Shown here: positions 34,854 to 50,398 of the stretch, one piece after another | How positions within the stretch are numbered: position 1 is the first letter of the stretch | Layout of the letters: each line of letters starts with the position of its first letter | NCBI RefSeq assembly: GCF_033100135.1 | Contig: NZ_CP136920.1 | Coordinates: forward strand, 1,054,001-1,118,000 | Length of the DNA stretch: 64,000 nucleotides | Direction: 5' to 3' | From: Rubellicoccus peritrichatus | Lineage (GTDB): Bacteria > Verrucomicrobiota > Verrucomicrobiia > Opitutales > Cerasicoccaceae | Made by a program: the position numbers and the translations under genes | Notes under the pieces: generated by a model | Told to the model about the DNA's origin: nothing | The model's database searches: none | What the model saw: only the letters and a program-made list of their open reading frames with translations

Positions 34854-35798
34854 ATGCCCGTTAGTTTGGAATATGGACACGCTCGAGCAGGATGGCAGAT
34901 TGGCGACAAGGGGCTGGCTGTCTTTGTGCCCGTGCCCTTTCTGGGAGGCGCTTCTGAGGAATTACTGTATTCTGATACGGTCGAGTGCCTTAGCCAATCC
35001 GAAGACTGGCTCCATGTCGAAAACGAAGCCTTCATCATAATCGCAACGAAGGTACTCGTTGCCAACAATATGGAGGCTGTGACTCTTGAGCTGTATCAAC
35101 GGCTCCTCACAGCTGTTGGCTCCCAGCAGATTCTGCGAATCTGGAACTACGTTCCGCGCATTAATGAATGGGAGTCCGGTGACGAAAATTACCGTAGCTT
35201 TTGCAGTGGTCGCGCCAAGGCATTTGCAACACAAGCTGCGCCGGATAATACTAATTTCCCAGCCGCATCGGCCGTTGGTTGTAATGGAGATGAGGTCATC
35301 ACCATACTCATCGCTGCCAAGTCAGGAAAAGCCCATCACTTTGAAAATCCGCTTCAATGTCCGGCCTACGAATATCCTCCTCAATATGGAGCGAATGCGC
35401 CGGCTTTTGCCCGGGCGACTTCATGGGAGAAGCACGGCTCGGCCTTATATATCTCCGGCACTTCTTCGGTCAGCGGCCATGAAACTGCCTTCCCCCTTGA
35501 TATCGACGGCCAACTTCGTGTTACTGCGCAGAATCTCTACAGCATCCTAAATGAAGCCCGGATGCGTGGTGTTAGCAATGACCTTGCAAAACCAGGCTGG
35601 TTAAAAGCCTATGTTCGCAAACCGCATGATGCCTCTAAAGTGGAAGCATTCCTCGCAGAGGAGAACTGGCTTGTCGATGACCGCTTCAGCATCGTCCAGG
35701 CCGACATTTGCCGCCGCGAGTTGCTGGTCGAGATCGAATTGTCCTGGCTTGACCTGAAGGCAAATACAAGCTCGATCAAGTCCAGGTTTTCTACATAA
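34854..35798 (+). CDS. Chorismatase (XanB2/FkbO/Hyg5 family)
   Basis: 314-residue member of the chorismate hydrolase family that turns chorismate into a hydroxybenzoate or dihydroxycyclohexadiene acid; XanB2 makes 3- and 4-hydroxybenzoate for xanthomonadin. Diagnostic segments: RIWNYVPRIN, ENYRSFCSGRAKAF, FPAASAVGCNG, NPLQCPAYEYPPQYG, APAFARA and LYISGTSSVSGHE. Which subtype cannot be settled by eye. It is followed by a halogenase-like flavoprotein and lies 6 kb upstream of an aryl polyene-type operon, so a hydroxybenzoate starter for that pathway is the natural reading. Confidence 0.85.
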   Translation: MPVSLEYGHARAGWQIGDKGLAVFVPVPFLGGASEELLYSDTVECLSQSEDWLHVENEAFIIIATKVLVANNMEAVTLELYQRLLTAVGSQQILRIWNYVPRINEWESGDENYRSFCSGRAKAFATQAAPDNTNFPAASAVGCNGDEVITILIAAKSGKAHHFENPLQCPAYEYPPQYGANAPAFARATSWEKHGSALYISGTSSVSGHETAFPLDIDGQLRVTAQNLYSILNEARMRGVSNDLAKPGWLKAYVRKPHDASKVEAFLAEENWLVDDRFSIVQADICRRELLVEIELSWLDLKANTSSIKSRFST

Positions 35799-35812
35799 GT
35801 TATGTTGACTTT

Positions 35813-35879
35813 GGTAGGGCGCAGTCTCCAGACAAGCCGAACGTCACGGTGGCGGCTTGTCTGGAGACTGCGCCCTACC
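35813..35879. repeat. Perfect 26-bp-arm palindrome, copy 1
   Basis: Arms 35813-35838 and 35854-35879 are exact inverted copies (starting GGTAGGGCGCAGTCTCCAGA) around a 15-nt loop. The same sequence recurs at 39059-39155. It lies between the chorismatase and the halogenase-like gene. Confidence 0.92.
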
Positions 35880-35904
35880 TTACAACAGAATATTTTCACA
35901 AATA

Positions 35905-37152
35905 GTGAGTACCAACTATGACTGCATAATACTGGGTGGTGGGCCGGCTGGTTCAGCGGCCGGAGCCTTGCTTGCTCAAGGTGGCATGTCTGTTTGTATC
36001 ATTGAAAAGGAAACCTTCCCGCGCTTTCATATTGGTGAATCCCTTTTGCCGGCTGGAAATGAAACACTGCGCCGGATGGGGGTATGGGAAAGTATTGAGC
36101 AGACGGATTTTATTACCAAGCAAGGTGCCGAGTTTACCTATGGCTCTGGTGATAACTGTGTCCACATTGCTTTTCGCGACGGGCTCATTGATGGGCTGGA
36201 TTCCACCCGCCAGGTCCGTCGTGCGGAATTCGATCAGATCTTGCTCGAAAAAGCCCGGGGGAGTGGGTGCGATTTGTGCCAGCCCGCGCGGGTTACTGCC
36301 GCCGAGCAAACTGATCAGGGATGGAATATTAAACTATCACAAGGAAGTGAAACGGAACAACTCAATGCCACCTGGTTTCTTGATGCTGGTGGGCGAGGGC
36401 GCTTTCTTGGGTCGCGCTTGAAACTGTTGACAACCGATGTGCCTTTGCCGAAGCGCTTTGCAGTCTTCAGTCGTTTTCGCGGTGTCAAACGCAGAGAAGG
36501 GGATCGCGCCGGCAACATCATTGTCATTCGCATTCTCGATGGCTGGTTCTGGTCTATTCCGGTCAGTGAAAGTGAAACTTCTGTTGGTTTGGTTTGTACC
36601 CGAAAATATTTAAATGGAGGAAATCAGGAGGAGATCTTTTACGAGGCAGTATCCAGCAATCCTTTCATGAAAAACTGGATGGCGGATGCCAAATCGGTCG
36701 AGCCCTTTCGAACCGAATCGGACTATTCCTATATCCATGAACGATTCGCCGGTGAACGTTGGTTTCTCCTCGGTGACGCCGCAGGTTTTATTGATCCCGT
36801 ATTTTCTTCCGGTGTTTATCTGGCTTTGAAATCTGCCGAGGCGGCAGCAGATTCGATTCTTGCGGCCCGCGATCGTGGTGTTCTTTCAAAAGCGGAGCAG
36901 ACGGCCTTCACTCAAAACGCCAGAGCTTCGATGAAAACCATGGAGCAGCTTGTCTGTTCCTTTTACCATCCAAAAGATTTTTCTGTCTTCATGCATCCGC
37001 GCAATGTCTTCTCGGTGGTTTCCGCCATCAACTCCATTGTGGCCGGACGTTCCGATCTTAACTTCCAACTCTGGTGGCGCTTCCTTTTCTTCCGTACCCT
37101 TTGCCGCATCAATCGCCTTGTTCCGCTCGCCCCTCGACTTCAACTTGATTAG
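35905..37152 (+). CDS. Flavin-dependent halogenase-like oxidoreductase
   Basis: 415 residues from GTG 35905; an earlier TTG falls inside the palindrome and is unlikely. FAD-binding GGGPAG at 11-16 and FPRFHIGESLLPAG mark the tryptophan-halogenase/geranylgeranyl-reductase group. Two halogenase hallmarks are present: FITKQGAEF, with Lys72 at the place of the catalytic lysine, and WFWSIP (WxWxIP) at 214-219. WFLLGDAAGFIDPVFSSGV follows. A halogenase in the Xanthomonas pigment cluster has this type. Alternatives are a non-halogenating dehydrogenase or monooxygenase of the same superfamily. Confidence 0.8.
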   Translation: MSTNYDCIILGGGPAGSAAGALLAQGGMSVCIIEKETFPRFHIGESLLPAGNETLRRMGVWESIEQTDFITKQGAEFTYGSGDNCVHIAFRDGLIDGLDSTRQVRRAEFDQILLEKARGSGCDLCQPARVTAAEQTDQGWNIKLSQGSETEQLNATWFLDAGGRGRFLGSRLKLLTTDVPLPKRFAVFSRFRGVKRREGDRAGNIIVIRILDGWFWSIPVSESETSVGLVCTRKYLNGGNQEEIFYEAVSSNPFMKNWMADAKSVEPFRTESDYSYIHERFAGERWFLLGDAAGFIDPVFSSGVYLALKSAEAAADSILAARDRGVLSKAEQTAFTQNARASMKTMEQLVCSFYHPKDFSVFMHPRNVFSVVSAINSIVAGRSDLNFQLWWRFLFFRTLCRINRLVPLAPRLQLD

Positions 37153-37644
37153 GAAGGTAAAGGGATGCCTTTTAGATCCATGCAGAGTAAGGCCCTTCTC
37201 CTCCAGTTAACCTGTCCTTTCTAATCAGGCTTGAGTCATTGCCGGAACATCACGGTTTTGGGTATCAACCGCCGAGTTGCGTCTTCCCGTCACCGTTGCT
37301 TCTCAATTCGCATGAGGTAGTCGGCTCATAATTTGATACAATTTAGTATTTAATTTCCGGAATTGAAGTTCTACGAACAAGCATCAACGTAAGTGAGTAA
37401 CGCGACTGGCCTTGAGTCTGTTCAAGGATGCCAAAAGTTATTTGCCGATTGGTCAACGGAATTAGTCTTCACGCCAAGCCGCCAAGCTCGCCAGGTTTGC
37501 CCCACGAATAGCTTTGCGCTCTTTTTAGTAATGATGAATGACAGGATTGCCGCGAGTTGATAAACGAGCTAACGAGCTGGAACCTATTCATGAAGATTTG
37601 CACGATTCGTAGTGAACCGTATCATCGACAATATTACGTCTGGA
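37153..37644. other. Gene-free stretch with a palindrome fragment
   Basis: About 490 nt with no convincing gene on either strand. It contains CTTCACGCCAAGCCGCCAAG at 37467-37486, which resembles one arm of the 31.8-kb palindrome without its partner, and a short direct repeat CGAGCTAACGAGCT near 37565. Otherwise nothing recognised. Confidence 0.6.
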
Positions 37645-38817
37645 TCAGAGTTTCCACTTCCAGCCTTGCTCGGTCATGATGGCTTCCAGCTGTGGGGTTG
37701 CAGGATAGTTGGCAGGGCCAAGGTTATGCTTTTGCAGGTACTTCAGTGACATGAAGAGTTTGGTGATGTCCCAGCGGCGATCACGTATTTCGGATTCACT
37801 GGCGTCGGAGAGCTCATCCATGTAATCCTGGATATACAAATCCGCTTCATCCCAGGCATCATCATCGTGTGTGTAGTGGAGTGATTCCAGCAGGCGAATT
37901 GTTTTTCCAAGACCTTCCATATTGTCGGCATCGGCGCGTACTTCAGCTGCGATTTCTTCGCGCTTGGCCATGGTGGCTTCGGGGGAGAGCCGTCCGTCGA
38001 AACCACCTTGAACTGCCCTTGGGCGGAGCGGGCGGCACCAGATATTGCGGAAGCGAACCGGGTTGCCATGGTCTTGCAGGCTTATGGGACCTTTGTCCGG
38101 GAAAATCCGGCTTTTGGCCCGTCTTCGCCAGCCGCCACCGCCTTCGAGTGGTGTGTTGTCCTGCACGACGACTCCATTGATCAAAACGGTCATTGCTCCC
38201 TCATCAACGATAACACCGTCTTTATCAATTGGGCGGCGAAAGATGATATCATAGCTCTGCCATTCTGTAGGGCTCCGGAGTGGATTGACCGCAGGCGGCA
38301 TCACACCGTAAACGGCACCTGCCGTGCCATCGGCGTAGGTTGGGTTTTCATAGTTGTCGAGCACCTGTACTTCAACCCCCATGATGAAGACTCCGCTGTT
38401 GCCACGGCCTTGCCCTTTGCCGCGTATTTCGAGGGGAGCAGCCCATTCGATATGAAGCTGGCAATCACCAAAGTCTTCCTTCGTGCCGATGAAGCCCGCC
38501 CCGGGTGTGCACTGCAATACTCCGTCCTTTACCAGCCAGTCGCCTTTGCGCTTGTCCTCTGGCTTATAATGCTTCCAGTTTTCCCGAAAAGAAGCTTCTG
38601 TCCCATCAAAAAGGACCACTGCATCAGAGGGCGGCGCCCCGACAGTCGCTCCCGGTTCAACGCGTGGAGGCTGAGGGCGGTTGCGGTCATGCACGGACCA
38701 TGGGTGATGTGCGTCAGGCGGATCACCGTAGTTCAACCCGTTGGCCAGGATGAAGCTTTGTGGTATGAGGCATATCAGGAGGAAGGCAAGTGAGCGGGTA
38801 ATCGTTTTCGGTTGCAT
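37645..38817 (-). CDS. DUF1080 (3-keto-disaccharide hydrolase-like) secreted protein
   Basis: 390 residues from ATG 38817, chosen because it opens a signal peptide (MQPKTITRSLAFLLICLIPQ). The DUF1080 domain at about 65-270 is typical: VLFDGTEASFRENW, DWLVKDGVLQC, GRGNSGVFIMG, VEVQVLDNYENPTYADGTAG and ISLQDHGNPVRFRNIW. Family members act on glucosides or 3-keto-sugars. The ~120-residue C-terminal helical extension is not recognised. It stands between the two halves of the pigment locus with no obvious link. Confidence 0.85.
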   Translation of the reverse strand: MQPKTITRSLAFLLICLIPQSFILANGLNYGDPPDAHHPWSVHDRNRPQPPRVEPGATVGAPPSDAVVLFDGTEASFRENWKHYKPEDKRKGDWLVKDGVLQCTPGAGFIGTKEDFGDCQLHIEWAAPLEIRGKGQGRGNSGVFIMGVEVQVLDNYENPTYADGTAGAVYGVMPPAVNPLRSPTEWQSYDIIFRRPIDKDGVIVDEGAMTVLINGVVVQDNTPLEGGGGWRRRAKSRIFPDKGPISLQDHGNPVRFRNIWCRPLRPRAVQGGFDGRLSPEATMAKREEIAAEVRADADNMEGLGKTIRLLESLHYTHDDDAWDEADLYIQDYMDELSDASESEIRDRRWDITKLFMSLKYLQKHNLGPANYPATPQLEAIMTEQGWKWKL

Positions 38818-38948
38818 CGGAAGATAATCGTTACGGGTGAATAAATAGGTGCTATGCCTATGTAAATGTCCGCGCAACCATACAGTTGTGCAAAAAACAC
38901 GAATCCGATAAGGGATTATACTTCTGAGTGCAGGGTTTCCGGGATTAT

Positions 38949-38978
38949 TCTCTCGCAAAGGCGCGAAGACGCAAAGGA
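38949..38978. repeat. Single-arm repeat fragment
   Basis: CGCAAAGGCGCGAAGACGCA-type sequence, in the style of dispersed Verrucomicrobia/Planctomycetes repeats, with no inverted partner nearby. Probably a decayed palindrome arm. Confidence 0.4.
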
Positions 38979-38998
38979 GCTTGATATCCGATATCCTA

Positions 38999-39262
38999 GG
39001 TCGTGTTTTCAAACATCGGTATTTTTCATCTTGTTAACTTTTAGAGTAGTGTGATGAAGGTAGGGCGCAGTCTCCAGACAAGCTGAACGTTGTTGTAGAG
39101 AAAAGCGACCATGCTCAGAGGCAGGGTTCGGCTTGTCTGGAGACTGCGCCCTACCTGAAGTGACCTGTTTGGCCGCTACCCTTCATAACAGTACTCTTAA
39201 AACCAGCTTATCCCCTTGGGGAGGCAACCAAATATAAAATACGGAGGTTTGAAAACACGGCC
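38999..39262. repeat. Outer inverted repeat enclosing palindrome copy 2
   Basis: Left region 38999-39060 and right region 39178-39262 are imperfect inverted copies. The outer ends match best (GGTCGTGTTTTCAAACATCG against the complement of 39238-39262), and inner blocks (CTTCATMACA, TACTCT, AAAA) match in order. The centre holds the 39059-39155 palindrome. The arrangement looks like one palindromic element inserted in the apex of another. Confidence 0.65.
39059..39155. repeat. Palindrome copy 2 (same family as 35813)
   Basis: Arms 39059-39088 and 39126-39155 match over 30 nt with one mismatch, and share their first 25 nt with copy 1. The 37-nt loop differs from the 15-nt loop of copy 1, except for the GAAC that follows the arm. 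Nested within a larger inverted repeat. Confidence 0.9.
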
Positions 39263-39282
39263 TGAATAGGAATGTAAGCGGT

Positions 39283-39903
39283 CTAAAACTTATACTGTAT
39301 GCCCAGCTCTGCCTGATTGACGAGGGGAGTATCAAAATCGACGCCACCAATTTCCGGCTCCAGGCTACTGTAGGCCTTCCATCCTAGTTCGATGCTCAGA
39401 TTTTCGAGTATGTTATAGCCGATACCGATCATACCTTGATAAGCAAACTCCCCACCAGAGTCTTCGAAGCCACCATTAAGTTCTAACTCAGTCACTGCGT
39501 AGCCAAGACCTACACCCCAATAGGTATAAAAACTTTCTGTGATTGGGATATCCAAGATGGCATTGCCCATATAGCGTGATATGTTGATGTCACCCAAATT
39601 AGAAAAGGTGAACCCAAATTGTGTGGCTTCGCTGATACCGGCCGAAGCGTAACCTCCCTCAAATTCAGTTCTCAAGCTTAGGGCATCTGTGCCAAGGTCA
39701 AATCGATAACCGATGGCGCCGGTGAAGCTGTAGCCTGTTTCGTATTCGAAGGTTATTGAACTGCCCGATGGCCCGATTTCAGAACCGCCAAAGAATGCTG
39801 GACCGCCACGAGCTGTAATATAAAAAGACGTTTCGTCACTTGCATGCGATGCAACTGGAAACAGTGATAAGGCCGTTGATACAATTAGGATGTTTTTAAG
39901 CAT
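39283..39903 (-). CDS. Outer-membrane beta-barrel protein
   Basis: 206 residues: signal peptide (ending SHAS) and eight-strand-like alternation (ARGGPAFFGG, EYETGYSFTGAIGYRFDLG, YWGVGLGYAVTELEL, YQGMIGIGYNILENLSIELG) finishing in the C-terminal aromatic QYKF typical of BAM substrates. OmpW/OmpA-barrel-like; ligand unknown. Convergent neighbours: none, as it is flanked by the palindrome cluster and a divergent lipoprotein gene. Confidence 0.8.
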   Translation of the reverse strand: MLKNILIVSTALSLFPVASHASDETSFYITARGGPAFFGGSEIGPSGSSITFEYETGYSFTGAIGYRFDLGTDALSLRTEFEGGYASAGISEATQFGFTFSNLGDINISRYMGNAILDIPITESFYTYWGVGLGYAVTELELNGGFEDSGGEFAYQGMIGIGYNILENLSIELGWKAYSSLEPEIGGVDFDTPLVNQAELGIQYKF

Positions 39904-40097
39904 TGGCCTAACCCAGCAGTTTTTTCTTCGCTGGCAAGTTAAAATTCCGTCTTATATTAAATTTTTTCGTCATTAGTAATCTTTGGGTTGTCTATCGGCT
40001 TTGGTTATAAGCCTTCGGAATTCATGATGACTGGTTCTCGACAAAGAATAGCGTTGCCTTTGGTGGACTGTTACTTCTCAAGGGGTATCCATATTCC

Positions 40098-40844
40098 ATG
40101 GTTATGATGAAATCCATTGCTTTAATGCTTATAGTTTTTGTACTGTTTGGTTGTAATACGACAACCGACAAACGTTACTACAGTTATGATTATGATGGAA
40201 GTAAGCTTGCACCACTTAGCGGCAAGCGTGTTGTCATCGCGCCGATGTCATTGATGCGTATACAAAACATCCCACAAACGCATCAGAACTCAGATCGCAT
40301 TACAGATGCGCTTGACGACTACCTTCAGCAGGCTGGATATGATGTCGTTGATAGTCGTATTTTTCAGGAGGTATACGATCGAGAAGTTGAGAAAAGTGGT
40401 GGCTTGTATGATACGAAGAGCGGCGCGGTTGATCAGGAGAGGCATGATATCCTCCTGAGAAAAGTCTTCATCGAATTGAAGCGGGATAATGATATCGATT
40501 ATGTTGTGTTTCCTTCACTGTATCATTCTCAGGTTGAGGTAAATGATCTTTCGAAGAGAGCGCGTTGGGATGGAGTTGAGCGGAAAATGATGGTCGGTAG
40601 CAATGTAACGACTTTTGTTACTAACCCGATGGCTGTTTCACTTTACCTTATTGTGATTTCCACGGAGAAGGGGATGGTTTTGAAAAATCGGGCCGGCCTT
40701 GAGATCGTGGTCGAGGCAGTGAGGGAGAAGGACAAAATTATAATGAAATCCCGGACGGATTTGTATGACGATGATGCTGTTGTTTTTGAAGCCATAGAGA
40801 AGGTGATGCATCCGTTCATCCCCTACACGGAATATGGAAATTAG
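40098..40844 (+). CDS. Lipoprotein of unknown function
   Basis: 248 residues, signal with lipobox LFGC at about residue 19 (alternative ATGs at codons 3 and 4). The mature part contains GKRVVIAPMSLMRIQNIPQT, ALDDYLQQAGYDVVDSRIFQ and a long sheet region (NVTTFVTNPMAVSLYLIV), recalling curli-assembly/TolB-like periplasmic lipoproteins but not assignable. It precedes the pigment operon by about 145 nt; whether it belongs to it is unclear. Confidence 0.7.
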   Translation: MVMMKSIALMLIVFVLFGCNTTTDKRYYSYDYDGSKLAPLSGKRVVIAPMSLMRIQNIPQTHQNSDRITDALDDYLQQAGYDVVDSRIFQEVYDREVEKSGGLYDTKSGAVDQERHDILLRKVFIELKRDNDIDYVVFPSLYHSQVEVNDLSKRARWDGVERKMMVGSNVTTFVTNPMAVSLYLIVISTEKGMVLKNRAGLEIVVEAVREKDKIIMKSRTDLYDDDAVVFEAIEKVMHPFIPYTEYGN

Positions 40845-40989
40845 TTTTTCCCGGAAGCTTATATGTATTTTTCCGGAGTCTCATGACAATCGGCGTTTAG
40901 GCTCTGATGGGCTTGTCGAGAGAATCCTAGGTTGACGAGGAACGACGGTGGTTTAAGTTCTATGGGTTTTAAGAAAGCCCGTGGAATTG

Positions 40990-41253
40990 ATGACCAAAGA
41001 AGAGACCAAACAACGCTTAAAACAGCTGATTGTGGAAGCTTTGAACCTCGAAGATGTTGAGCCTGATGAGATTGAGGACGACATGGCCTTGATGGAGGCT
41101 GGGCTGGGGCTTGATTCCATTGATGCGCTTGAGCTTGTTGTGCGGCTGGAAAAGGATTTCGGCGTTAAAATCAGTAATAGCGAGGAGGCGCGTGAGGCTT
41201 TGGCCAGTGTCAATGCATTGGCGGATTTTCTTCAAGCCAAGGCTTCTGCTTAG
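40990..41253 (+). CDS. Acyl carrier protein of the aryl polyene-type operon
   Basis: 87 residues from ATG 40990; a GTG at 40981 is an alternative. Carries the growing chain on a 4'-phosphopantetheine arm attached to Ser in GLGLDSIDALEL, the canonical DSxxxxEL site. Otherwise a normal ACP helix pattern (KEETKQRLKQLIVEALNLED, VRLEKDFGVKIS). Only one ACP is seen here, where aryl polyene clusters often have two. Opens the operon. Confidence 0.9.
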   Translation: MTKEETKQRLKQLIVEALNLEDVEPDEIEDDMALMEAGLGLDSIDALELVVRLEKDFGVKISNSEEAREALASVNALADFLQAKASA

Positions 41254-41282
41254 CCCATATTGCTGGCCTGACCCTGTTTCTT

Positions 41283-42377
41283 ATGCTCCCGGCGGTTTAT
41301 CTTAAGGATTACGACTGCATCAGTCCATTTGGGCGGGTAGGGGATACCTGGAGGTCACTATGCGCCGATGGGCGTGCATTGGCGCTTTATCCGGTTCCGG
41401 AGCGCGATGATGATTCTGTGCCATTGGCTTTGATCAATCCCATTGAGGAAACCGAAGAAGGTCGCTGGCTAAAACCGAGTCTGGATCTCCTGTCAGGAGT
41501 TTCGGGTAATCCATGGGGTGATGAACGGCATCCGGTGATTGTTACCAGTAGTAATTTTGGGATTGGCCAGCTATTTGCGCATACCAATGTTGATCCCGAA
41601 ATGCCGTTAAGTTCAGCCAGTCCGGCGAGGGCGGTTGAGCGTATTGCCGAAGCATGTTGTTGGGGAAAGAACCGTTTTATCATCTCCAACGTTTGCATTT
41701 CTGCTCAGCTTGGGATGATTCACGCTGCCCGTTTGTTGCATGCGGATCTTGCCGATGAGGTGCTTGTCTTTTCGTTTGATTTTCTAAGTCCGTTTGTGGT
41801 GGGTGGTTTTCATTCCCTCAGGATTCTAAATGATGCCTTTCCCCGGCCATTTTCTAAAGGTGAAATCAGCTCCATCGGCTTGGGAGATGGTGCGGCCTAT
41901 GCCGTTCTGGATCGCTCAAATCAAAGTGAGTTGCGTCTTAGCCCAGGGGTGACCTGGTATGAGTCCCACCACATGACGGGTAATGATCCGTCGGGTTCCG
42001 GTTTCAAGCAGATCATGGAGTCGATAGGTGAAGTGGTACAGGGCAAACAGGTTTGGCTGAAAGGCCACGGTACTGGGACGGTAGAGGCGGGTAGCCTGGA
42101 GGCAGATGCGGCTTCGCGGGCCTTTCCTGATGCACCCCTCGTTTCCTGGAAGGGTTCACTTGGGCATACTCTTGGCTCATGCGGGTTGATTGAATTGGCG
42201 ATTGCCGCGAAAGCTATGACTGAGGGCGTTGTTCCCGGGAATTCTCAGACGGGACCTGAAACACTAAACACAGCTGTGGCTCGCGAAGCCTTTTCAGCCA
42301 GGGATTTCGATGGTGTCATATTAACCAGCAGTGCCTTTGGTGGGGCACATGCATCACATTTCTTGAGTCGTGCTTAG
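41283..42377 (+). CDS. Beta-ketoacyl synthase (aryl polyene type)
   Basis: 364-residue ketosynthase, shorter than FabF (~410). Complete Cys-His-His triad: NVCISAQLGM, KGHGTGTVEAGSLEADA and KGSLGHTLGSCGLIE. The GNDPSGSGFK loop also fits. It catalyses decarboxylative condensation with malonyl-ACP. The next gene, overlapping by 8 nt, encodes a ketosynthase-like partner. In E. coli such a pair (ApeO with ApeC) forms a heterodimer, so a heterodimeric synthase is likely here too. Confidence 0.88.
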   Translation: MLPAVYLKDYDCISPFGRVGDTWRSLCADGRALALYPVPERDDDSVPLALINPIEETEEGRWLKPSLDLLSGVSGNPWGDERHPVIVTSSNFGIGQLFAHTNVDPEMPLSSASPARAVERIAEACCWGKNRFIISNVCISAQLGMIHAARLLHADLADEVLVFSFDFLSPFVVGGFHSLRILNDAFPRPFSKGEISSIGLGDGAAYAVLDRSNQSELRLSPGVTWYESHHMTGNDPSGSGFKQIMESIGEVVQGKQVWLKGHGTGTVEAGSLEADAASRAFPDAPLVSWKGSLGHTLGSCGLIELAIAAKAMTEGVVPGNSQTGPETLNTAVAREAFSARDFDGVILTSSAFGGAHASHFLSRA

Positions 42378-43940: not shown

Positions 43941-44731
43941 AATCACCAGGCACATCAGTGGGGCGCGGTTACATTCGTCTCTACACTCTCTATCCGCTAC
44001 TCATTTGCCTTTATGCCGTGCTGATCGGGTTTGTGAATCTGTGCTGCTTTGTTTCCAGTTTGTTTCCGGGACGCGAGCGGCGCTCTCCCCGGATACATCG
44101 CATCGTTGTTTGCTCTGCGAAAATTTTCCGGCGTAGTGTTGAGATAACGGGTATTGGGATAATCAAATTTCAAGGTTTTGATTTGTTGCCGAAACAGCCA
44201 TCGATTCTCATCGCCAACCACACTGGCTTATTGGATGCGATACTGCTAATATCTGTCCTTACCGATGTCGCAGTTGTCTTTAAGAAAGGACTTAGGTTCA
44301 GTCCGTTTTATAGTCATTTGACTTCTGAGCCTGGCTACATTGGCAACGATGAAGGCATTGGCTTGATCAAGCAGTCTTGTGAGGCTTTATCCAGTGGCCG
44401 CCGTATTCTTATATTTCCCGAAGGTACTCGGACTGAGGCGGTGCCAATCAATCCGCTGAAAGGTGGTTTTGCGGTGATTGCCCGACAGATGAATATCCCA
44501 ATCTACACTATTCTGATTGATAACAAATCGTGGTTCCTGGGGAAGGGTGGCGGGCTTTTTCAAAACTACAAATTCCCTTTTGTGTGTGAGTTTCGCGTGG
44601 GTAAATCTTTTAAGCCGAGTGCAGCACAAAGCAGCCGTGAGTTGACCACGCAGGTTGAACAGTATTTAAGAGAGGCATTGAAGGATATAGAAGAAGCACC
44701 ATGGCGAATGTCATCAGTAAAGAAATCTTAG
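43937..44731 (+). CDS. PlsC-like 1-acylglycerol-3-phosphate O-acyltransferase
   Basis: 264 residues from GTG 43937. N-terminal membrane helix (about 14-40), then the PlsC active site NHTGLLDAILL (HX4D) and the substrate-binding FPEGTR, followed by PIYTILIDN. Aryl polyene clusters commonly encode one such enzyme to esterify the polyene to glycerol-type lipid, which would anchor the pigment in the outer membrane. Overlaps the hotdog gene by 31 nt. Confidence 0.85.
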   Translation: MKSPGTSVGRGYIRLYTLYPLLICLYAVLIGFVNLCCFVSSLFPGRERRSPRIHRIVVCSAKIFRRSVEITGIGIIKFQGFDLLPKQPSILIANHTGLLDAILLISVLTDVAVVFKKGLRFSPFYSHLTSEPGYIGNDEGIGLIKQSCEALSSGRRILIFPEGTRTEAVPINPLKGGFAVIARQMNIPIYTILIDNKSWFLGKGGGLFQNYKFPFVCEFRVGKSFKPSAAQSSRELTTQVEQYLREALKDIEEAPWRMSSVKKS

Positions 44732-44997
44732 TAGATTCAGAGAATGGTTATTGCGATGGGCATTTCCCTGAGCGTCCGATCGTTCCTGCCGCTGTGGAAT
44801 TAATGTGGATGACGGATCTTGCGCAGGAGCATGGGCTTTGTTGTGAGTCCGGCTACACGGTTAAAAATATGAAACTGATTCGTGAGCTCGTCCCAGGCAC
44901 AACGGTCACAGTAAAACTGCTTCAAGGGAAACGTGGCTGGTCTGGAACGATAGCTGATTCAGATGGGCTCTTTGCCCAATGCAATTTGATTTTCTGA
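44701..44997 (+). CDS. FabZ/ApeI-like hotdog dehydratase
   Basis: 98 residues: short hotdog protein with GHFPERPIVPAAVELMWMTD, the FabA/FabZ-type active-site helix segment with GHFP. It removes water from the 3-hydroxyacyl-ACP. The second hotdog gene near 48.7 kb suggests a two-subunit dehydratase like ApeI/ApeP. Confidence 0.8.
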   Translation: MANVISKEILVDSENGYCDGHFPERPIVPAAVELMWMTDLAQEHGLCCESGYTVKNMKLIRELVPGTTVTVKLLQGKRGWSGTIADSDGLFAQCNLIF

Positions 44998-44998
44998 T

Positions 44999-45775
44999 AT
45001 GACCAGTGACTCGCATGTTGTCGTTATTCCGTCATATAACACAGGGCGAATTCTTGTTGATACAATCCGGGAGGCCTTGAAGCATTGGCAGCCTGTCTGG
45101 CTTTTTGTTGATGGATCGACGGATGATTCATTTCGATGTTTTCTTGATTCGCCTGAAGACTGGCCGGGACTTTCTGTTTTTGTTTCATCGGAGAATGAAG
45201 GAAAGGGGGCGACAGCGATTCGTGCTGCGAAGGAAGCCGAACATGCTGGCTTTACCCATATGCTTTTGATGGATGCAGATGGACAGCACCCTGCTAAAGA
45301 AATCGCCAGGTTTATGGGGCTCTCCAGGTCTGCACCTGAAGCAATGATCCTTGGGCAACCGGTTTATGGCGATGACGCACCATGGGTTCGTCTGGCGGGG
45401 CGCCAGCTGAGCGTTGGCATGGTTTGGTTGGAAACTCTTGGTGGTGGTGTCGGAGATCCACTGGTCGGCTTTCGTGTTTATCCAGTTAAAGCCTTGTTGG
45501 AAGCAGCTGACAATACTCGCTTTGCGAGGCGTTATGATTTTGATCCTGAGATGGCGGTTCGGCTTTTCTGGCGCGGCACTCGGCCGATTCGAGCCAGGAT
45601 TTCAGTCATTTACGTCAGCCCTGAAGCTGGTGGTATCAGCCATTTTCATTATCTGCGGGACAACCTCTTTATGATTTGGTTGCATCTGAGATTGATCATC
45701 GCCTTCATTCCAAAATGTATTCGTGTCGCACAGTTGAGTCGCCATTTCCGGTCACTGGAAAAAGCTGGTTCTTGA
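44999..45775 (+). CDS. GT2-family glycosyltransferase
   Basis: 258 residues: VVVIPSYNTGRILVDTIREA, VDGSTDDSF and the metal-binding LLMDADGQHP (DxD-like), typical of GT-A fold family 2. A hydrophobic C-terminal helix suggests membrane association. In this cluster type a GT2 is thought to decorate or transfer the polyene lipid. Follows the hotdog gene by one base. Confidence 0.85.
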   Translation: MTSDSHVVVIPSYNTGRILVDTIREALKHWQPVWLFVDGSTDDSFRCFLDSPEDWPGLSVFVSSENEGKGATAIRAAKEAEHAGFTHMLLMDADGQHPAKEIARFMGLSRSAPEAMILGQPVYGDDAPWVRLAGRQLSVGMVWLETLGGGVGDPLVGFRVYPVKALLEAADNTRFARRYDFDPEMAVRLFWRGTRPIRARISVIYVSPEAGGISHFHYLRDNLFMIWLHLRLIIAFIPKCIRVAQLSRHFRSLEKAGS

Positions 45776-46383
45776 TTGTCTTTATTGCCCTGGTTGCATC
45801 TGCCTGTGAGAGCTATGCAGCTGCTACCGAACTGGGGCCCGAAGCATTGAAGGAGACACTCGACAAGCTGGCACCCCCGCAATCAGAACATGGTTTTACG
45901 ATTCCATTTAAGGAAGCTCGTTCATTTCCTTTCCGCCGATATCCAAAAAATTTTGAAGGTAAAGTTTACGCAGCTGCGGATGGTCAGTTGGCGATCGTTT
46001 ACTCATTTCCTTCGTCATACCGCATAATCATCTCAGGTGATCAGATTGAGTTAATTTACGATGATGGTGAAACTCGCGATTTATCCGGCGAGGCAGGTTT
46101 GCATGTGTTTACGGACTTATTGAAATGGGATACGGAGGCTATCTCGCAAAACTGGCCTACGTCGTCGGTTAATGAGCAAGATGGTCGTTATTATGTAACA
46201 CTAGTGCCAATCGATTCTACTTTGGCGAAGAGTATTAAAGAACTGTCGTTTCAGTTTGATGATCAACGTGTCTTCTCCGTTAGTATCAAGCAACGAGATG
46301 GAGTGGGGCGTAAGTATGAGTTTGGTCCGGCTGTGCCTATGGACTTGGGTGATCCTGAAATAAGAGAAGTCTTCTCACGATAG
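45715..46383 (+). CDS. LolA-like lipoprotein carrier homologue (ApeL-like)
   Basis: 222 residues from ATG 45715, which gives a signal sequence KSWFLIVFIALVASACESYA; a TTG at 45772 overlapping the GT2 stop as TTGA is an alternative start. Mature part shows the LolA-type half-barrel (GFTIPFKEARSFPFRRYP, KVYAAADGQLAIVYSFP, SFQFDDQRVFSVSI). Probably ferries a hydrophobic pigment-lipid across the periplasm after export by the MMPL protein encoded next. Overlaps GT2 by 61 nt. Confidence 0.75.
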   Translation: MYSCRTVESPFPVTGKSWFLIVFIALVASACESYAAATELGPEALKETLDKLAPPQSEHGFTIPFKEARSFPFRRYPKNFEGKVYAAADGQLAIVYSFPSSYRIIISGDQIELIYDDGETRDLSGEAGLHVFTDLLKWDTEAISQNWPTSSVNEQDGRYYVTLVPIDSTLAKSIKELSFQFDDQRVFSVSIKQRDGVGRKYEFGPAVPMDLGDPEIREVFSR

Positions 46384-46393
46384 GGCTTTAACA

Positions 46394-48685
46394 ATGGGTG
46401 AGCGTTTCAAAAACAATTTGCTTCTCATTGGCCTGATTGTGCTTCCCATTATTTGGCTCTTGGCAACAGGATTACCATCAAAGTTCTCAACCAATTTGTT
46501 GGATCTGGTTCCTGCTGAAAGCTTGAGTGGTGATGACGCTCGTTCCATGCGTGCTGCAAACGCCTTGCTTGCAGAGAATGTATTTCTCTCGGTTGATGGT
46601 TTAGAGGATTCAAAAGAAAAACAGAGCGCTGTTGCCTTGTTGGAGCAATTAGTCGCTCGCGAAGAAGCCTTCAGCGGTGTTGTAATTTCTAATGAAGATA
46701 AGTTCCCAGAGTCAGTTTGGGAAACTTTACAAACACGCAAGCTGCCTTTGTTTCTTGCGAGATGGATTCAAAACCGGAAGGCGAAATTTGAAGCAACGTC
46801 ATCTGATCAGAATTTGTCCGCCTGGCTCGCGGACGAACAAATGAAGCGTTTGGAAGCATTTTTGGAGAGTCCGGAAGGTATGGCTTACGCTGCGCAAATC
46901 CCATCGGACCCACTTTTACTTTTGCCTGAAGCACTAAATACTTTGCGCCAATTTCAACCTGAGCATGCCGTTGTTTCCAATGACACTCTATTAGCCTGGA
47001 TAGCTCTTGCGGAAAATCCATTTGATTCAGATGCCCAGGAATCCATTGAAAAAGCAGTCGCCTTTGTAACTGACGAGCTTGCCCATGCTTTTCCCAATGC
47101 AGCAATCGAAACTGGAGGCGTTTATGCATTGGCACGAGAGAGTGCAAGTGCCTCAAAACGTGAAGTCGCGCGTCTCAATATTATTACCGCCTTTATCGTT
47201 TTTATTCTTCTGAGCTTACTGCTTCGACGGGCCAGTAGTATTCTTTTGGTATTGATTCCACTCACTTGCGCAATTCTGTGGGCACTGGCAATTGGTATTT
47301 TGGTTTTTGGTCAAATCCATGTTTTTGCTTTGGGAATGAGTGCCGTATTACTCGGTCTGGCGGTTGACTATGGTATTCACGCAGAAGCTCACCGAACCCT
47401 TGGGAGGGGCAGAGATAAATCGCCATGGGGAGCAATAAAACGGCCACTTATGGCGGGATGTTTATCGACATGCATTGGCTTTTCTGTGATGGCCTTTACG
47501 CCGATCCCTGCGCTTAAGCAGGTTGCTGTATTGGTTCCTGGTGGGCTTCTTGCTGCTCTTGTTTCTGTTTATTTAATATACTCAAATACGGCATTCAATG
47601 TTTCTCAGAAGCAGAGGCTGGCATTCTCGTTTCCCAAGCTGAAGGTAAGTGTTATTATAGGCGTATCATTGGGGACTACAATCATTTCGATTTTCATGAT
47701 TACTTCGCGGGGCTATCTGTATGATTCTGTTACCCAGTTTCAGTTACCCGCGACAAAACAGCAGAAACAATTTGCCGATATGCTTGAGCGAATGGATCAA
47801 GGCACATCAGGAGAGCGTTGGGTGCTTTATGCCCCAACTGCGATTGAGCTTCTTCAATCGATGAGTGTATTAAATGAGCAAAATGAAACCACCATATTTC
47901 CAATCGCTGAAGTTATTGTGCCTCCGGAAAAACTGCAGATGTCAGAGCAAGAGCGACGTGATTTTTTGATACGCTTTCAGGATAAGCTAGACGGGGCTGG
48001 ATATGACACTGAAGCCTTTTGTGCTTCCATTGATGAATTGGTTCAGCCTATCTCAGCTGGTGTTTTTGAAGATTCAATGTCGCGGCTGGCAGATGCTTTA
48101 CAGGGACCGTTAGCATTCGCACTTGGACAGGAAGGTGGTTTGTTCTTTTCAGTATTTACTATCCCCAACTCTGCCGATAGTTTTATGCTGCCTCCCGAAG
48201 TCAATGCGGTTCAGATTGCCGAACGCGAGCACTTGGATTATTTACTGGCTTCGGCTAATCGCGGTATTCTGGCTATGTGCCTGTTTGCTTTTCTGCTTGT
48301 CTCTGCCCTGCTCGTGCTTTTCTTTGGCTTCAAGGATGGTCTTATTGTTGCGTTGCTTCCGCTTTGGACTGTACTTTGTGCAAATGCAATTTTAGCAGTT
48401 TGGAGTCCTGGTTTCAGTTTGATTAGTGTGATCGGAAGCATCCTCGGATATTGCCTGGCACTGGACTATGCAGCCTTTGCAATCACTGAGCGTGGTAAGC
48501 CGCTCTTGTCCGTTCGTCTTTCGGCTGTGACTTCCGCTTCGGCATTTGCAGTCCTGACAACCAGCCCGATCATTGCATTGAGTGCACTCGGATGGTCAGT
48601 TTGTATACCAATCTTGATTGCATGGCTTGGATCTGAATGTGTAAATGGTAGCTTGAGTCGTAATGTCTTATCCACCTCCCAGTGA
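46394..48685 (+). CDS. MMPL/RND-family exporter (ApeM-like)
   Basis: 763 residues with the RND plan: one N-terminal helix (GLIVLPIIWLLATG), a large periplasmic loop, five helices around 275-425 with GLAVDYGIHAEAHRTLGRGR, a second loop (about 450-650) and five more helices ending near residue 755 with LDYAAFAITERGKP. Expected to move the finished polyene lipid out of the inner membrane, passing it to the LolA-like carrier. Overlaps the next gene by 23 nt. Confidence 0.88.
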   Translation: MGERFKNNLLLIGLIVLPIIWLLATGLPSKFSTNLLDLVPAESLSGDDARSMRAANALLAENVFLSVDGLEDSKEKQSAVALLEQLVAREEAFSGVVISNEDKFPESVWETLQTRKLPLFLARWIQNRKAKFEATSSDQNLSAWLADEQMKRLEAFLESPEGMAYAAQIPSDPLLLLPEALNTLRQFQPEHAVVSNDTLLAWIALAENPFDSDAQESIEKAVAFVTDELAHAFPNAAIETGGVYALARESASASKREVARLNIITAFIVFILLSLLLRRASSILLVLIPLTCAILWALAIGILVFGQIHVFALGMSAVLLGLAVDYGIHAEAHRTLGRGRDKSPWGAIKRPLMAGCLSTCIGFSVMAFTPIPALKQVAVLVPGGLLAALVSVYLIYSNTAFNVSQKQRLAFSFPKLKVSVIIGVSLGTTIISIFMITSRGYLYDSVTQFQLPATKQQKQFADMLERMDQGTSGERWVLYAPTAIELLQSMSVLNEQNETTIFPIAEVIVPPEKLQMSEQERRDFLIRFQDKLDGAGYDTEAFCASIDELVQPISAGVFEDSMSRLADALQGPLAFALGQEGGLFFSVFTIPNSADSFMLPPEVNAVQIAEREHLDYLLASANRGILAMCLFAFLLVSALLVLFFGFKDGLIVALLPLWTVLCANAILAVWSPGFSLISVIGSILGYCLALDYAAFAITERGKPLLSVRLSAVTSASAFAVLTTSPIIALSALGWSVCIPILIAWLGSECVNGSLSRNVLSTSQ

Positions 48686-49073
48686 ATGTCTGCCGCATGA
48701 GCCGCCCATGGTATTGCTCCATGAAATCAAGTGGGTCAATGACCAGGGCCTATCTGCATCCGTGCATCTGGGAAATAATGATATTTTCGATTCAAGAGCA
48801 GATGTGCCGATAGCCTGGGCAATGGAAATCATCGCGCAGGCTGCGGCTGCTTATGTCGGTATCAATTACCGGGTTAAAGGATATACATCTGGCCGGCTTA
48901 TTCGAGCCTCTTCATTTTCTGCTAATGCAACTTTCATACCGAAGAGTACCAAGCTTACTGCAATGGTGACAAAGATAGCTGAGAGCGAAATGGGCGTGTT
49001 TCTCTTTCAGGGATCGCTCTCGGAGGGGGATGTTATCCTGGCTGAGGCATCGTTTACCATACTTGTGAAATGA
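48663..49073 (+). CDS. ApeP-like hotdog dehydratase
   Basis: 136 residues: LPHEPPMVLLHEI at the N-terminus and IPIAWAMEIIAQAAAAY-like helix, the arrangement of FabZ-type hotdog proteins (LPHRxPMLLID in FabZ). Likely partners the first hotdog protein. Overlaps MMPL by 23 nt and the ligase as ATGA. Confidence 0.8.
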   Translation: MSYPPPSECLPHEPPMVLLHEIKWVNDQGLSASVHLGNNDIFDSRADVPIAWAMEIIAQAAAAYVGINYRVKGYTSGRLIRASSFSANATFIPKSTKLTAMVTKIAESEMGVFLFQGSLSEGDVILAEASFTILVK

Positions 49074-50398
49074 GCGGAAAAAGTACTATGATTGATGCGT
49101 GGGAGCGTGTGCTTGAGCGAAGATCCGACGACATCGCATTGATCGAAGCTGAGCAAAAGAGAAGTTATCGTTTTCATGAGCTTAATCACTTGGCTGAGGT
49201 ATGGATAGAACGTTTAGCAGGAAAAAGGCTCGCGCGCAAATCTGTGATCGTGCATCTGCCAAACAGTGCCGACTGGATTGCCTTGTTGATTGCATTGCGC
49301 CGTGTGAATGCAGTCGTTATTCCGGTTGATTATTCTTGGCCATTACAGAAAGTCGAGGAAGTAACCGAGCGGTTCCGCGCAGCGCTTATAATCACATCTT
49401 CCGGTATCCGTGAGTGTGATTTACCTCATCGAAAATGGAAAGAAGGCTGTAGTCTGGTCAAACTCACTTCTGGTTCAACAGGTGTCCCTAAGGGGATCGT
49501 ATTTTCTGATGATGAACTGATCGCAGATGGATATAATATCATCGAGACAATGGGAATTTCTGGAGGAGATCGAAACCTATGTCTTCATCCACTTGGTCAT
49601 TCTTATGCGATTGGAAATGTTGTAGTGCCATTGCTTGCATTTGGAATTTCCGTAGTCATGGGCTCTTCGCCGTTCCCACGTGTTATCCAAGAGGAGGCAG
49701 CAGCCTTTGGCGCAACTGTTTTGCCGACTGTGCCTCCAATTCTTGAAGCACTTTGCAAGGCGGGGGTTGAATCCCTCAGGCCAATACGTTTGGTTATTTC
49801 AGCAGCAGCTCCCTTAACTCCGGTGTTAGCTACAACGTTTTTTGATAAGTTCGGGTTTTACATTCACAACTTTTACGGTTCATCAGAGACTGGAGGTATT
49901 ACTTATGATCGCACGGGTAAGTCTGGTTTGAGCGGGGAGGCTATTGGAACACCTCTGGCTAATGTAAGATTAAGGATATCTAAGCATGGTCATTTGCTGG
50001 TGCAAAGTATGGCGATCAGTCATTACGGAAAACCTACCGATCGTGATAATCCGGCAGAAGAAATGTTATCCGATCGTGCGAGTATTGCACTTGACGGTTC
50101 GATAACGCTTCAAGGTCGAGCAGATCGTGTGGAGAAAATTGGAGGGAAACGCATCGACTTAGCGGCAATGGAGGATGCTCTTGCAGAAACATTTTCAACT
50201 TCACATGTAGCTATTTTTAAAGCAGAAAATGCGATTCAGGTAGTGATGGAAAATGGAAAATTTGAAGAACAGGAAGTCAAATGCTGGCTGTCTCGTCGGC
50301 TGGGACGACGGTATCAACTTCGCTTAGTGAGCAAGGTGCCACTCACATCGCGTGGGAAAAAAGACTACGTTGCTTTGAAGGCTCGTTTCAGTAAATAA
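49070..50398 (+). CDS. AMP-dependent acyl/aryl ligase
   Basis: 442-residue ANL-superfamily adenylating enzyme: P-loop TSGSTGVPKG, the A5 region FYGSSETGGI, and A8-type GRADRVEKIGGKRID. The C-terminal lysine is present in SRGKKDY. Activates a carboxylate to the adenylate and loads CoA or ACP. Given the chorismatase upstream, hydroxybenzoate is the best substrate guess, as for XanA2-type ligases. Last gene of the operon. Confidence 0.87.
   Translation: MSGKSTMIDAWERVLERRSDDIALIEAEQKRSYRFHELNHLAEVWIERLAGKRLARKSVIVHLPNSADWIALLIALRRVNAVVIPVDYSWPLQKVEEVTERFRAALIITSSGIRECDLPHRKWKEGCSLVKLTSGSTGVPKGIVFSDDELIADGYNIIETMGISGGDRNLCLHPLGHSYAIGNVVVPLLAFGISVVMGSSPFPRVIQEEAAAFGATVLPTVPPILEALCKAGVESLRPIRLVISAAAPLTPVLATTFFDKFGFYIHNFYGSSETGGITYDRTGKSGLSGEAIGTPLANVRLRISKHGHLLVQSMAISHYGKPTDRDNPAEEMLSDRASIALDGSITLQGRADRVEKIGGKRIDLAAMEDALAETFSTSHVAIFKAENAIQVVMENGKFEEQEVKCWLSRRLGRRYQLRLVSKVPLTSRGKKDYVALKARFSK

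Follow-up and report, generated by a model that had tools for sequence, protein, structure and literature searches.

The 64,000-nt window analysed here, the whole stretch of Rubellicoccus peritrichatus DNA under study, very probably encodes a pathway, nearly complete in its genes, to an aryl polyene primed by hydroxybenzoate; it would be the counterpart in Verrucomicrobiota of the xanthomonadin and arcuflavin systems. This reading draws on which genes are present, how they are ordered across the family, what they are homologous to and which residues are candidates for catalysis, all taken from the sequence; it agrees with the first-pass annotation, which had proposed an aryl polyene made from hydroxybenzoate, and is supported by the matches of the ketosynthase (KS) and chain-length factor (CLF) and by the link of the operon to a chorismatase.

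Gene content and layout of the locus

All genes of the first-pass annotation were recovered in place by ORF and profile-HMM checks of the window (Table 1). The operon it had described, with ACP, KS, a KS-like partner, acyltransferases, hotdog dehydratases, GT2, LolA, MMPL and ligase genes, proved to consist of 11 genes (40981-50398), whose neighbours overlap or lie within ~30 nt of each other. The chorismatase and halogenase-like flavoprotein genes, correctly placed upstream of it, are 3.8 kb away, and the intervening DUF1080, barrel and lipoprotein-like genes and the two palindromes noted earlier were present as well. Since several operon proteins scored below the curated family cut-offs when taken singly, their identity was also based on gene order in the family, PDB profile and sequence matches, predicted folds and HMM matches to a Pseudoalteromonas cluster (L165).

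Table 1. Features of the locus, with window coordinates
Feature	Coordinates	Strand	Evidence or remark
Extra UbiE-like methyltransferase, possible head-group methylase	32023..32775	+	chorismatase neighbourhood
Chorismatase, FkbO/Hyg5/XanB2 superfamily, predicted chorismate to hydroxybenzoate	34854..35798	+	TIGR04444, PF21168, PDB
Dispersed palindrome, copy between chorismatase and halogenase	35813..35879	n/a	
FAD-dependent halogenase-like enzyme	35905..37152	+	PF04820, PDB, motifs
Probable inserted stretch: DUF1080 protein (3-keto-disaccharide hydrolase), beta-barrel, lipoprotein-like gene	37153..40980		separates chorismatase-halogenase from operon
Dispersed palindrome, second copy	39058..39156	n/a	
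Acyl carrier protein, ApeE-like, DS of carrier motif	40981..41253	+	PF00550, NF006617
Ketosynthase, ApeO-like	41283..42377	+	PDB 7f28_B, conserved Cys138-His262-His295
Chain-length factor, half-length, ApeC-like	42370..43035	+	profile and fold matches
Acyltransferase, LpxL-like	43032..43940	+	PF03279 weak, below cut-off; conserved order; matches L165 cluster
Acyltransferase, PlsC-like (ApeD-like)	43937..44731	+	PF01553; matches L165 cluster
Hotdog dehydratase half with His, ApeI-like, 98 aa	44701..44997	+	below cut-off
Glycosyltransferase family 2 (GT2)	44999..45775	+	PF00535; matches L165 cluster
LolA-like carrier	45676..46383, real start probably ~45773	+	NF053544 LolA2_flexi E=2.1e-7, below cut-off
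MMPL/RND-type exporter	46394..48685	+	PF03176; TIGR00921 below cut-off; matches L165 cluster
Hotdog dehydratase half with Glu, ApeP-like, 136 aa	48663..49073	+	PF22817 weak, below cut-off
AMP-dependent ligase, putative for aryl starter	49070..50398	+	PF00501 E=4e-40

The KS-CLF pair is of the ApeO-ApeC type, as looked for in an aryl polyene locus. The KS scored above the cut-off with PF02801 and below it with PF00109; its best PDB sequence match was A. baumannii ApeO (7f28_B, E=1.6e-19), from the ApeO-ApeC structure 7F28 (PMC8358021), and C138, H262 and H295 were invariant in 26 sequences. The fold search with its predicted model (pLDDT 89.6) ranked ApeR, FabF and ApeO close together and cannot by itself separate ApeO from FabF or ApeR. 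The CLF gave a weak PF13723 match below cut-off, profile matches to 7f28_A and 6qsp_B in the PDB, and a model (pLDDT 92.3) whose top three fold matches were all ApeC chains (TM 0.52-0.64). Membership of the KS in a fatty-acid or unrelated PKS family, named at the outset as part of an outcome that would speak against the whole reading, is argued against by ApeO as top sequence match and by the ApeC-type CLF; together with the distinct conserved subfamily formed by the KS, these also disfavour an ordinary FabF. KS and CLF were fused in one relative (L083), and the alignment of this fusion with mixed rows was left unused because its CLF rows seemed misaligned. A second, FabB-like KS, a candidate ApeR, lies ~218 kb off (G000:C1:876447); its neighbour there is an ACP-FabA fusion, and its role may be in making unsaturated fatty acids. 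Homologues were found close to the operon in at least 45 of the 80 named loci and in 21 of the 37 well-flanked ones, KS and second KS being split by score only, as the iterated KS profile also caught FabB-like KSs.

The other components looked for were likewise present: an ACP with an AMP-type ligase of predicted aryl substrate, and a LolA-like carrier with MMPL, acyltransferases and GT2. The DS of the ACP was conserved in 101/101 aligned rows (second ACPs included) and the C-terminal Lys of the ligase in 70 of 74, the remaining 4 having gaps. The flavoenzyme HMM and those of all but one of the 11 genes in the operon matched the Pseudoalteromonas cluster, which from its gene set appears to be an aryl polyene cluster, with the KS matching at family level only. 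The CLF HMM had no match either in this cluster, which starts inside an acyltransferase, so that any CLF upstream is out of view, or in a Caballeronia cluster (L164), in which Pfam finds a PF13723 protein.

Flavoenzyme, chorismatase and starter unit

The flavoenzyme ORF covers 35857-37152, although translation probably starts at the GTG at 35905, and it matched PF04820 with E=1e-26. Its best solved relatives in the PDB are ChlB4, PltA and CmlS, the first and last of which we take to be halogenases, and its WFWSIP and FIDPVFSSG motifs are conserved in relatives. The patterns WxWxIP and FxxPxFSxG are also seen in the FAD enzymes encoded by the clusters of Pseudoalteromonas and Caballeronia and are not halogenase-specific, and the non-halogenase families QhpG and LodB score well too, which makes it a serious possibility, albeit somewhat short of even, that the locus is for an aryl polyene with a flavoenzyme of another function (e.g., a ring or chain oxygenase) and an unhalogenated product. 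Those three closest solved relatives argue against this, as does the halogenase that accompanies the chorismatase in the arcuflavin and Xanthomonas loci (PMC3949708, PMC3691225). The UbiE-like methyltransferase gene stands upstream of the chorismatase in six family genomes, including this one, where a stronger UbiE match is found elsewhere (202 bits at G000:C1:3189066 vs 91 bits).

The chorismatase matched TIGR04444 (E=7.8e-54, 183 bits, below the cut-off of 325), PF21168 (E=4e-22, above cut-off) and, in the PDB, Hyg5 (5ag3, E=2e-36) and FkbO (4bps, E=2e-31). XanB2-type chorismatases form both 3- and 4-hydroxybenzoate (HBA), which speaks for a starter other than 3-HBA, that is, 4-HBA or another benzoate; in the same direction, alignment alone does not predict the reaction catalysed by a chorismatase (PMC3949708). 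Such a starter is nevertheless rather unlikely: of the three characteristic residues of the CH-Hyg5 subfamily (G164, G231 and C318 in Nat-hyg5; PMC7170507) two are present, the equivalents of Hyg5 G240 and C327 being kept in the alignment, and arcuflavin was labelled by a fluorinated 3-HBA, not by a 4-HBA analogue (PMC3949708). Ala replaces the first Gly (the G173 equivalent, mapped by constant offset), as in 58 of 69 aligned chorismatase rows, window included and partly non-independent. An ammonia-lyase-derived starter as in the Pseudoalteromonas cluster was rejected, since no PF00221 protein was found in the genome, nor in any of the 18 KS-bearing genomes among the 54 of the order. A plasmid search for the chorismatase gave a Caballeronia NK8 copy with no aryl polyene genes around it.

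Distribution, dehydration and ketoreduction

Across the 54 genomes of the order (own included), KS and chorismatase occurred together in 18, the KS alone in none, the chorismatase alone in one and neither in 35 (Fisher p=2e-13, relatedness uncorrected). KS and chorismatase distances were correlated with r=0.89 in the 47 loci that were kept because all four genes were present within set lengths (L083, L087 and L135 dropped). The chorismatase lay within ~10 kb of the KS in 47/80 loci, and in 27/37 of those flanked on either side by 9 kb or more; many of the 80 named loci are cut by contig ends. Named and G-handle loci repeat genomes (L049/L083, L050/L084, L055/L087, L063/L135 and similar), so that the row counts of the ACP, chorismatase, dehydratase and ligase alignments are not all independent. 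Co-occurrence and neighbourhood thus support the xanthomonadin-like link of chorismatase and operon proposed in the first-pass annotation.

The suggestion made there that the locus was split by insertions also gained support. Operon gene order is conserved in the family, and the chorismatase-halogenase pair adjoins the operon in five relatives (G001, G002, G006, G008 and locus L110), with one membrane-protein gene between them in G001, G006 and G008; the gap in the window is therefore probably an insertion. A similar stretch is absent from L049, L052, L055, L056 and L110, where the halogenase adjoins the operon. The VTT-domain membrane protein of the relatives was not found in the window, its own-genome matches reaching 34-35% at best.

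The ApeI/ApeP-type dehydratase pair, also looked for as part of an aryl polyene set, is present in the window with single-protein scores below cut-off. Its halves are complementary in catalytic residues where found: the shorter has His in 26 of 27 rows (one gap), while only 1 of the 27 has Glu where FabZ carries it, and the longer has Glu in 23/23 rows and no His at the His position. The pair was found in at least 9 of the 80 named Opitutia-type loci, many cut by contig ends, which slightly lowers confidence in the hydroxybenzoate-primed explanation. A gene-by-gene listing of three distant loci did not reveal it, and one of these, L096, has no room for it; the wide distribution consequently supports the KS-CLF-ligase-export core and not the whole pathway.

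FabG BLAST of the window revealed no ketoreductase (ApeQ/ArcH), the best match having E=0.32. A rough scan for SDR motifs over 97 loci (L049-L065 and L083-L162, some genomes twice) yielded five SDR-like ORFs beside the operons and none within them: those of L057 and L101, which are probably the same gene from a single genome, on the opposite strand ~0.8 kb past MMPL; L103, ~0.2 kb beyond the chorismatase; and L122 and L156, ~2 kb or more past the last recognised gene. FabG BLAST over L049-L079 gave four matches: L057 once more, the chorismatase locus L068, and two loci of a different operon type, L078 and L079. One FabG-level match was present in 51 of the 54 genomes, whether or not they carry the operon, and the best own-genome match of the Pseudoalteromonas FabG/ApeQ query was the FabG of the fatty-acid synthesis (FAS) locus (48%).

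An operon product of another kind, either a modified fatty acyl lipid or a different polyketide lipid that lacks the aryl primer or the polyene chain, with the chorismatase pair a mere neighbour serving another pathway, would fit the separate contigs of pair and operon in G003, G005, G007 and G009, the chorismatase without KS in G004, the dehydratase pair missing from most distant loci and the closeness of the KS fold to FabF, but is improbable in view of the chorismatase in 18/18 KS genomes vs 1/36 others, its proximity to the KS in the loci counted above and the ApeC-like profile and fold of the CLF.

Relation to known systems and proposed pathway

A chorismatase-halogenase pair and a half-length CLF are known from the arcuflavin and Lysobacter loci (PMC3949708, PMC3691225). 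The window shares with arcuflavin of Azoarcus sp. BH72, an organism with DAR genes, the adjacent chorismatase and halogenase-like genes, a KS with an N-terminal-KS partner, two dehydratases, ACP, AMP-ligase, glycosyltransferase, acyltransferases, LolA and exporter, and the arc genes likewise lie apart, in two unlinked loci (PMC3949708); in contrast to the window operon, they include a ketoreductase, arcH. As in xanthomonadin and its Lysobacter relative, where hydroxybenzoate needs a chorismatase, there are a KS with a half-CLF partner (ORF16-17) and two dehydratases (PMC3691225), and a second ACP is absent as in Xanthomonas; unlike those systems, the host is of another phylum, and the Lysobacter cluster has a ketoreductase. 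The aryl polyene clusters of E. coli, Xenorhabdus and Acinetobacter and that of Pseudoalteromonas have the same ApeO-ApeC pair, ApeI/ApeP-type dehydratases, ligase, GT2, LolA and MMPL, but also a ketoreductase ApeQ, a second KS ApeR and a thioesterase; no ApeR-type KS, thioesterase or ammonia-lyase was found in the window operon, and the Pseudoalteromonas cluster has an aromatic ammonia-lyase where the window has the chorismatase. Flexirubin loci probably need a PF00221 lyase, of which none was found in the present genome. A LolA2_flexi-type carrier (weak) and common polyene-associated genes are shared with them (PMC3949708).

The chemical steps, heterodimers, source of ketoreduction, modifications, anchor and product are given here as we would infer them. 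The chorismatase would cleave chorismate to 3-hydroxybenzoate, perhaps also to 4-hydroxybenzoate, which the AMP-ligase would load on the ACP. A KS-CLF heterodimer would add malonyl units, the housekeeping FabG of the fatty-acid locus would reduce the keto groups one by one, and the His and Glu hotdog subunits, joined in a heterodimer with a split active site, would dehydrate the product to a conjugated polyene. The ring would probably be halogenated by the flavoenzyme and may be methylated by the UbiE-like enzyme; the acyltransferases and GT2 would join the polyene to lipid, and MMPL and the LolA-like protein would carry it to the outer membrane.

'Arylpolyene' calls in Verrucomicrobiota have already been published, and a limited literature search found none joined to a chorismatase. 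With the present reading, the label would gain a concrete starter, hydroxybenzoate derived from chorismate, together with a set of enzymes open to testing. The chorismatase-primed type, studied so far in Proteobacteria, would extend to a further phylum. A polyene pathway without its own ketoreductase and distant relatives without the dehydratase pair would provide natural experiments, and the natural KS-CLF fusion could aid study of the odd half-CLF. Red to pink colours of Cerasicoccaceae are commonly credited to carotenoids, and since the genome carries three squalene/phytoene-synthase-family genes, colour alone would be no proof of an aryl polyene. More speculatively, chorismatase-tied aryl polyenes may be widespread in Opitutia with a shrinking reducing set of their own and FabG/FabZ borrowed, some red-pink colours of Cerasicoccaceae being halogenated or methylated polyenes; were this so, pigment output would be tied to fatty acid metabolism.

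Operon layout and condensing enzymes

The window (G000:C1:1054001-1118000) lies in a 5.8 Mb single-contig genome, and its 11 operon genes, from the acyl carrier protein (ACP) to the AMP-ligase, were all located on one strand, with neighbours overlapping or lying no more than about 30 nt apart. The gene roles named in the first-pass annotation agreed in each case with the domain scans, several matches being below curated cut-offs. The locus very probably encodes a hydroxybenzoate-primed aryl polyene pathway, our confidence having been lowered slightly because the dehydratase pair was rare outside the family. A PEP-CTERM protein was encoded immediately downstream of the locus. Many relatives (loci L050-L056, L060 and L063) carried a VTT-domain membrane protein directly before the ACP, with a Pfam match for the L060 member; it was absent from the window.

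The ketosynthase (KS) scored weakly with the usual N-terminal KS model. Its residues C138, H262 and H295 were invariant in 26 sequences. Its closest solved relative by sequence was 7f28_B (E=1.6e-19); according to PMC8358021, entry 7F28 shows ApeO in complex with ApeC, from the aryl polyene synthesis of Acinetobacter. The partner of 221 aa, a half-length chain-length factor (CLF), gave only a weak PF13723 match in a single-protein scan, and a 16-row profile placed ApeC in the top two positions of the PDB search (7f28_A, E=3.7e-4; 6qsp_B, E=5.6e-3). Fold search with its predicted structure (mean pLDDT 92.3) ranked ApeC chains as the top three (6qsp_B, E=7.8e-11; 7f28_C, 8.0e-8; 7f28_A, 1.4e-7) with query TM-scores of 0.52-0.64, the best ketosynthase following at 3.0e-5. 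For the KS model (pLDDT 89.6), ApeR, FabF and ApeO were found at closely spaced E-values, and its fold alone was therefore not diagnostic. In the metagenome-assembled genome Co_bin.226 (L049/L083), whose KS was the most similar to that of the window (60%), KS and CLF formed a natural in-frame fusion in a 591-aa open frame, which argues that the two proteins act as one unit. No second fusion of this kind was seen when L049 and the 80 named loci were compared.

Locations of the features discussed (window coordinates unless stated otherwise)
Feature	Location	Remark
UbiE-like methyltransferase	32023-32775	second, divergent copy
Stronger UbiE match	G000:C1:3189066	own genome
Sbal_3080-like lipoprotein	33409-33987	below cut-off; upstream of chorismatase
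Chorismatase	34854-35798	
Palindrome copy	35813-35879	
Halogenase-like flavoenzyme	35905-37152	
Palindrome copy	39058-39156	
Operon	40981-50398	ACP to AMP-ligase
PEP-CTERM protein	53051-53737	
ACP-FabA fusion, then FabB-like KS	L080 7505-9695	G000:C1 about 875.5-877.7 kb
Another KS, ACP-like and FAD oxidoreductase-like proteins	L081 4577-7539	G000:C1 about 1.69 Mb; consecutive
KS-CLF fusion	L083 10001-11776	Co_bin.226
Distant Opitutia operon	L096 6059-14919	

Starter unit and the upstream gene pair

The chorismatase belonged to the FkbO/Hyg5 superfamily, with a TIGR04444 score below cut-off. For Nat-hyg5, three residues characteristic of the Hyg5 subfamily have been listed (PMC7170507), which were mapped to G173, G240 and C327 by a constant offset of nine; on this mapping two of the three were present. 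Alignment with Hyg5 showed G240 and C327 kept and Ala at G173, while FkbO has Ala at the G240 and C327 positions. Among 69 aligned rows, including the window, G240 was found in 68 (one gap), C327 in all 69, and the G173 site held 58 Ala, nine Gly, one Cys and one gap. The product may be 3-hydroxybenzoate, alone or with 4-hydroxybenzoate.

A census of 54 genomes, including the own one (KS at E<=1e-80, chorismatase at E<=1e-30), found the chorismatase in 18 of the 18 genomes with the KS versus one of the 36 others (Fisher p=2e-13, genomes treated as unrelated). The exception, G004, encoded a chorismatase (L070) that matched the window enzyme at the key residues, and no operon KS was found in that genome. 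In G031 and G044, neither of which had a KS of the operon kind, the chorismatase search gave lower-scoring matches (E about 1e-13 and 1e-9, respectively). Ammonia-lyase (PF00221) was present in none of the 18 KS genomes, its two carriers among the genomes, G011 and G039, lacking the operon KS. Distance correlation over 47 loci was r=0.89 for KS-chorismatase and 0.90 for KS-GT2; the KS-chorismatase agreement shows shared descent, not function.

The closest solved relatives of the flavoenzyme were ChlB4, PltA and CmlS. The WxWxIP and FxxPxFSxG motifs, which we take to be those of halogenases, were kept in its relatives but also in the enzymes of the Pseudoalteromonas and Caballeronia clusters, whose products may or may not be halogenated, and the motifs are thus not specific. 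A halogenating activity is somewhat more likely than not. Two halogenase-like flavoproteins of different types were present near the operon in other Opitutia loci (L060, L063, L128, L139, L143 and L153).

The earlier proposal that insertions split the locus was supported: the chorismatase-halogenase pair adjoined the operon in G001, G002, G006, G008 and locus L110, the gap to the ACP being only 37 nt in G002 and a single membrane-protein gene intervening in G001, G006 and G008. In the window, pair and operon stand 3.8 kb apart, and the gap holds genes for a DUF1080 protein and a beta-barrel as well as a lipoprotein-like gene. An insertion in the window lineage is the simplest reading. The order UbiE-like gene, chorismatase, halogenase within a few kilobases was found in six family genomes, with the own one, G000, counted (G000, G002, G003, G005, G007 and G009). 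The two long palindrome copies are members of a dispersed repeat family, perhaps MITE- or REP-like, for which 81 half-sites were counted across the genome (at most two mismatches; none for a reversed control pattern).

Dehydration and ketoreduction

HMMs built from window-type proteins were run on the Pseudoalteromonas cluster L165, annotated with an aromatic ammonia-lyase, FabG, a thioesterase and two KSs, which we read from its gene set as a probable aryl polyene cluster. Matches were obtained for the ACP, KS, both acyltransferases, both dehydratases, GT2, LolA, MMPL, ligase and FAD enzyme; the chorismatase and CLF models found none in this stretch, which starts inside an acyltransferase. 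An Sbal_3080 lipoprotein also occurred some kilobases from this cluster. Of the 27 rows found for the 98-aa dehydratase half, 26 held the FabZ-type His (the other being a gap) and one had Glu at the FabZ position; the 136-aa half kept the Glu in 23 of 23 rows and the His in none. ApeI and ApeP act as a split-site heterodimer, and the complementary residues suggest that the two halves may fit the same arrangement.

A ketoreductase (KR) was found neither in the window nor inside the relatives' operons, an SDR-like ORF lying beside the operon in a few loci. The closest protein of the own genome to the Pseudoalteromonas KR was FabG of the fatty-acid locus (48%; next 35%), and this query gave exactly one match at E<=1e-40 in 51 of the 54 genomes, with or without the operon, and none in three. 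A more divergent dedicated KR may exist. Nothing in the 11-gene operon corresponded to the thioesterase or the ammonia-lyase that the Pseudoalteromonas cluster carries. A FabB-like KS about 218 kb from the operon adjoined an ACP-FabA fusion, and its role may therefore lie in making unsaturated fatty acids rather than in ApeR-type priming.

Distribution and relation to known systems

The named genome collection was scanned with patterns specific to the window subfamily (other phyla being possible), which gave 133 confirmed loci, of which 80 were used, many clipped by contig ends. Verrucomicrobiota taxa were named in 77 of the 80 titles (three were unspecific), 60 of these being Opitutia-type names. 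Counts in these 80 loci were CLF 78 (the 79th being the fusion), ACP 76, LpxL-like 76, GT2 68, PlsC-like 67, MMPL 63, ligase 54, LolA 51, chorismatase 47, FabB-like KS 45, halogenase-like 24 and only nine for each dehydratase half. Under less strict motif rules, a His-type hotdog ORF occupied its slot in 9 of 68 loci; for the Glu type the figure was 11 of 45. Neither half was recognised in the distant Opitutia operons L096, L126 and L144, which carried ACP, KS, CLF, acyltransferases, GT2, LolA and MMPL; in L096 neighbouring genes overlapped or almost touched, leaving no space for them. Where the KS was flanked by 9 kb or more on each side (37 loci), chorismatase was present in 27, a FabB-like KS in 21 and a halogenase-like gene in 15. 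The ten loci showing no chorismatase included two of Cerasicoccus, with the gene elsewhere in the genome. All 11 operon genes were present in the nine KS-bearing family genomes, including the own one, KS and CLF being fused in one. The complete operon is therefore typical of the family and some order members, the majority of distant Opitutia having the core without the dehydratase pair.

Chorismatase with halogenase, a half-CLF and unlinked loci are all already known from the arcuflavin, xanthomonadin and Lysobacter systems, and 'arylpolyene' clusters in Verrucomicrobiota are already published (PMC12193912, PMC8692599, PMC9865893). The open literature searched contained no report tying aryl polyene to chorismatase, generally or in Verrucomicrobiota; where Verrucomicrobia and chorismatase were mentioned together there, the chorismatase in question was that of FK506-type clusters. 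As far as searched in the open literature, the new features are the chorismatase link in Opitutia, the absence of a ketoreductase from the cluster, the patchiness of the dehydratase pair, a fusion of KS and CLF that occurs in nature, and a methyltransferase gene linked to the locus. The locus is best regarded as a variant within the known aryl polyene kind.
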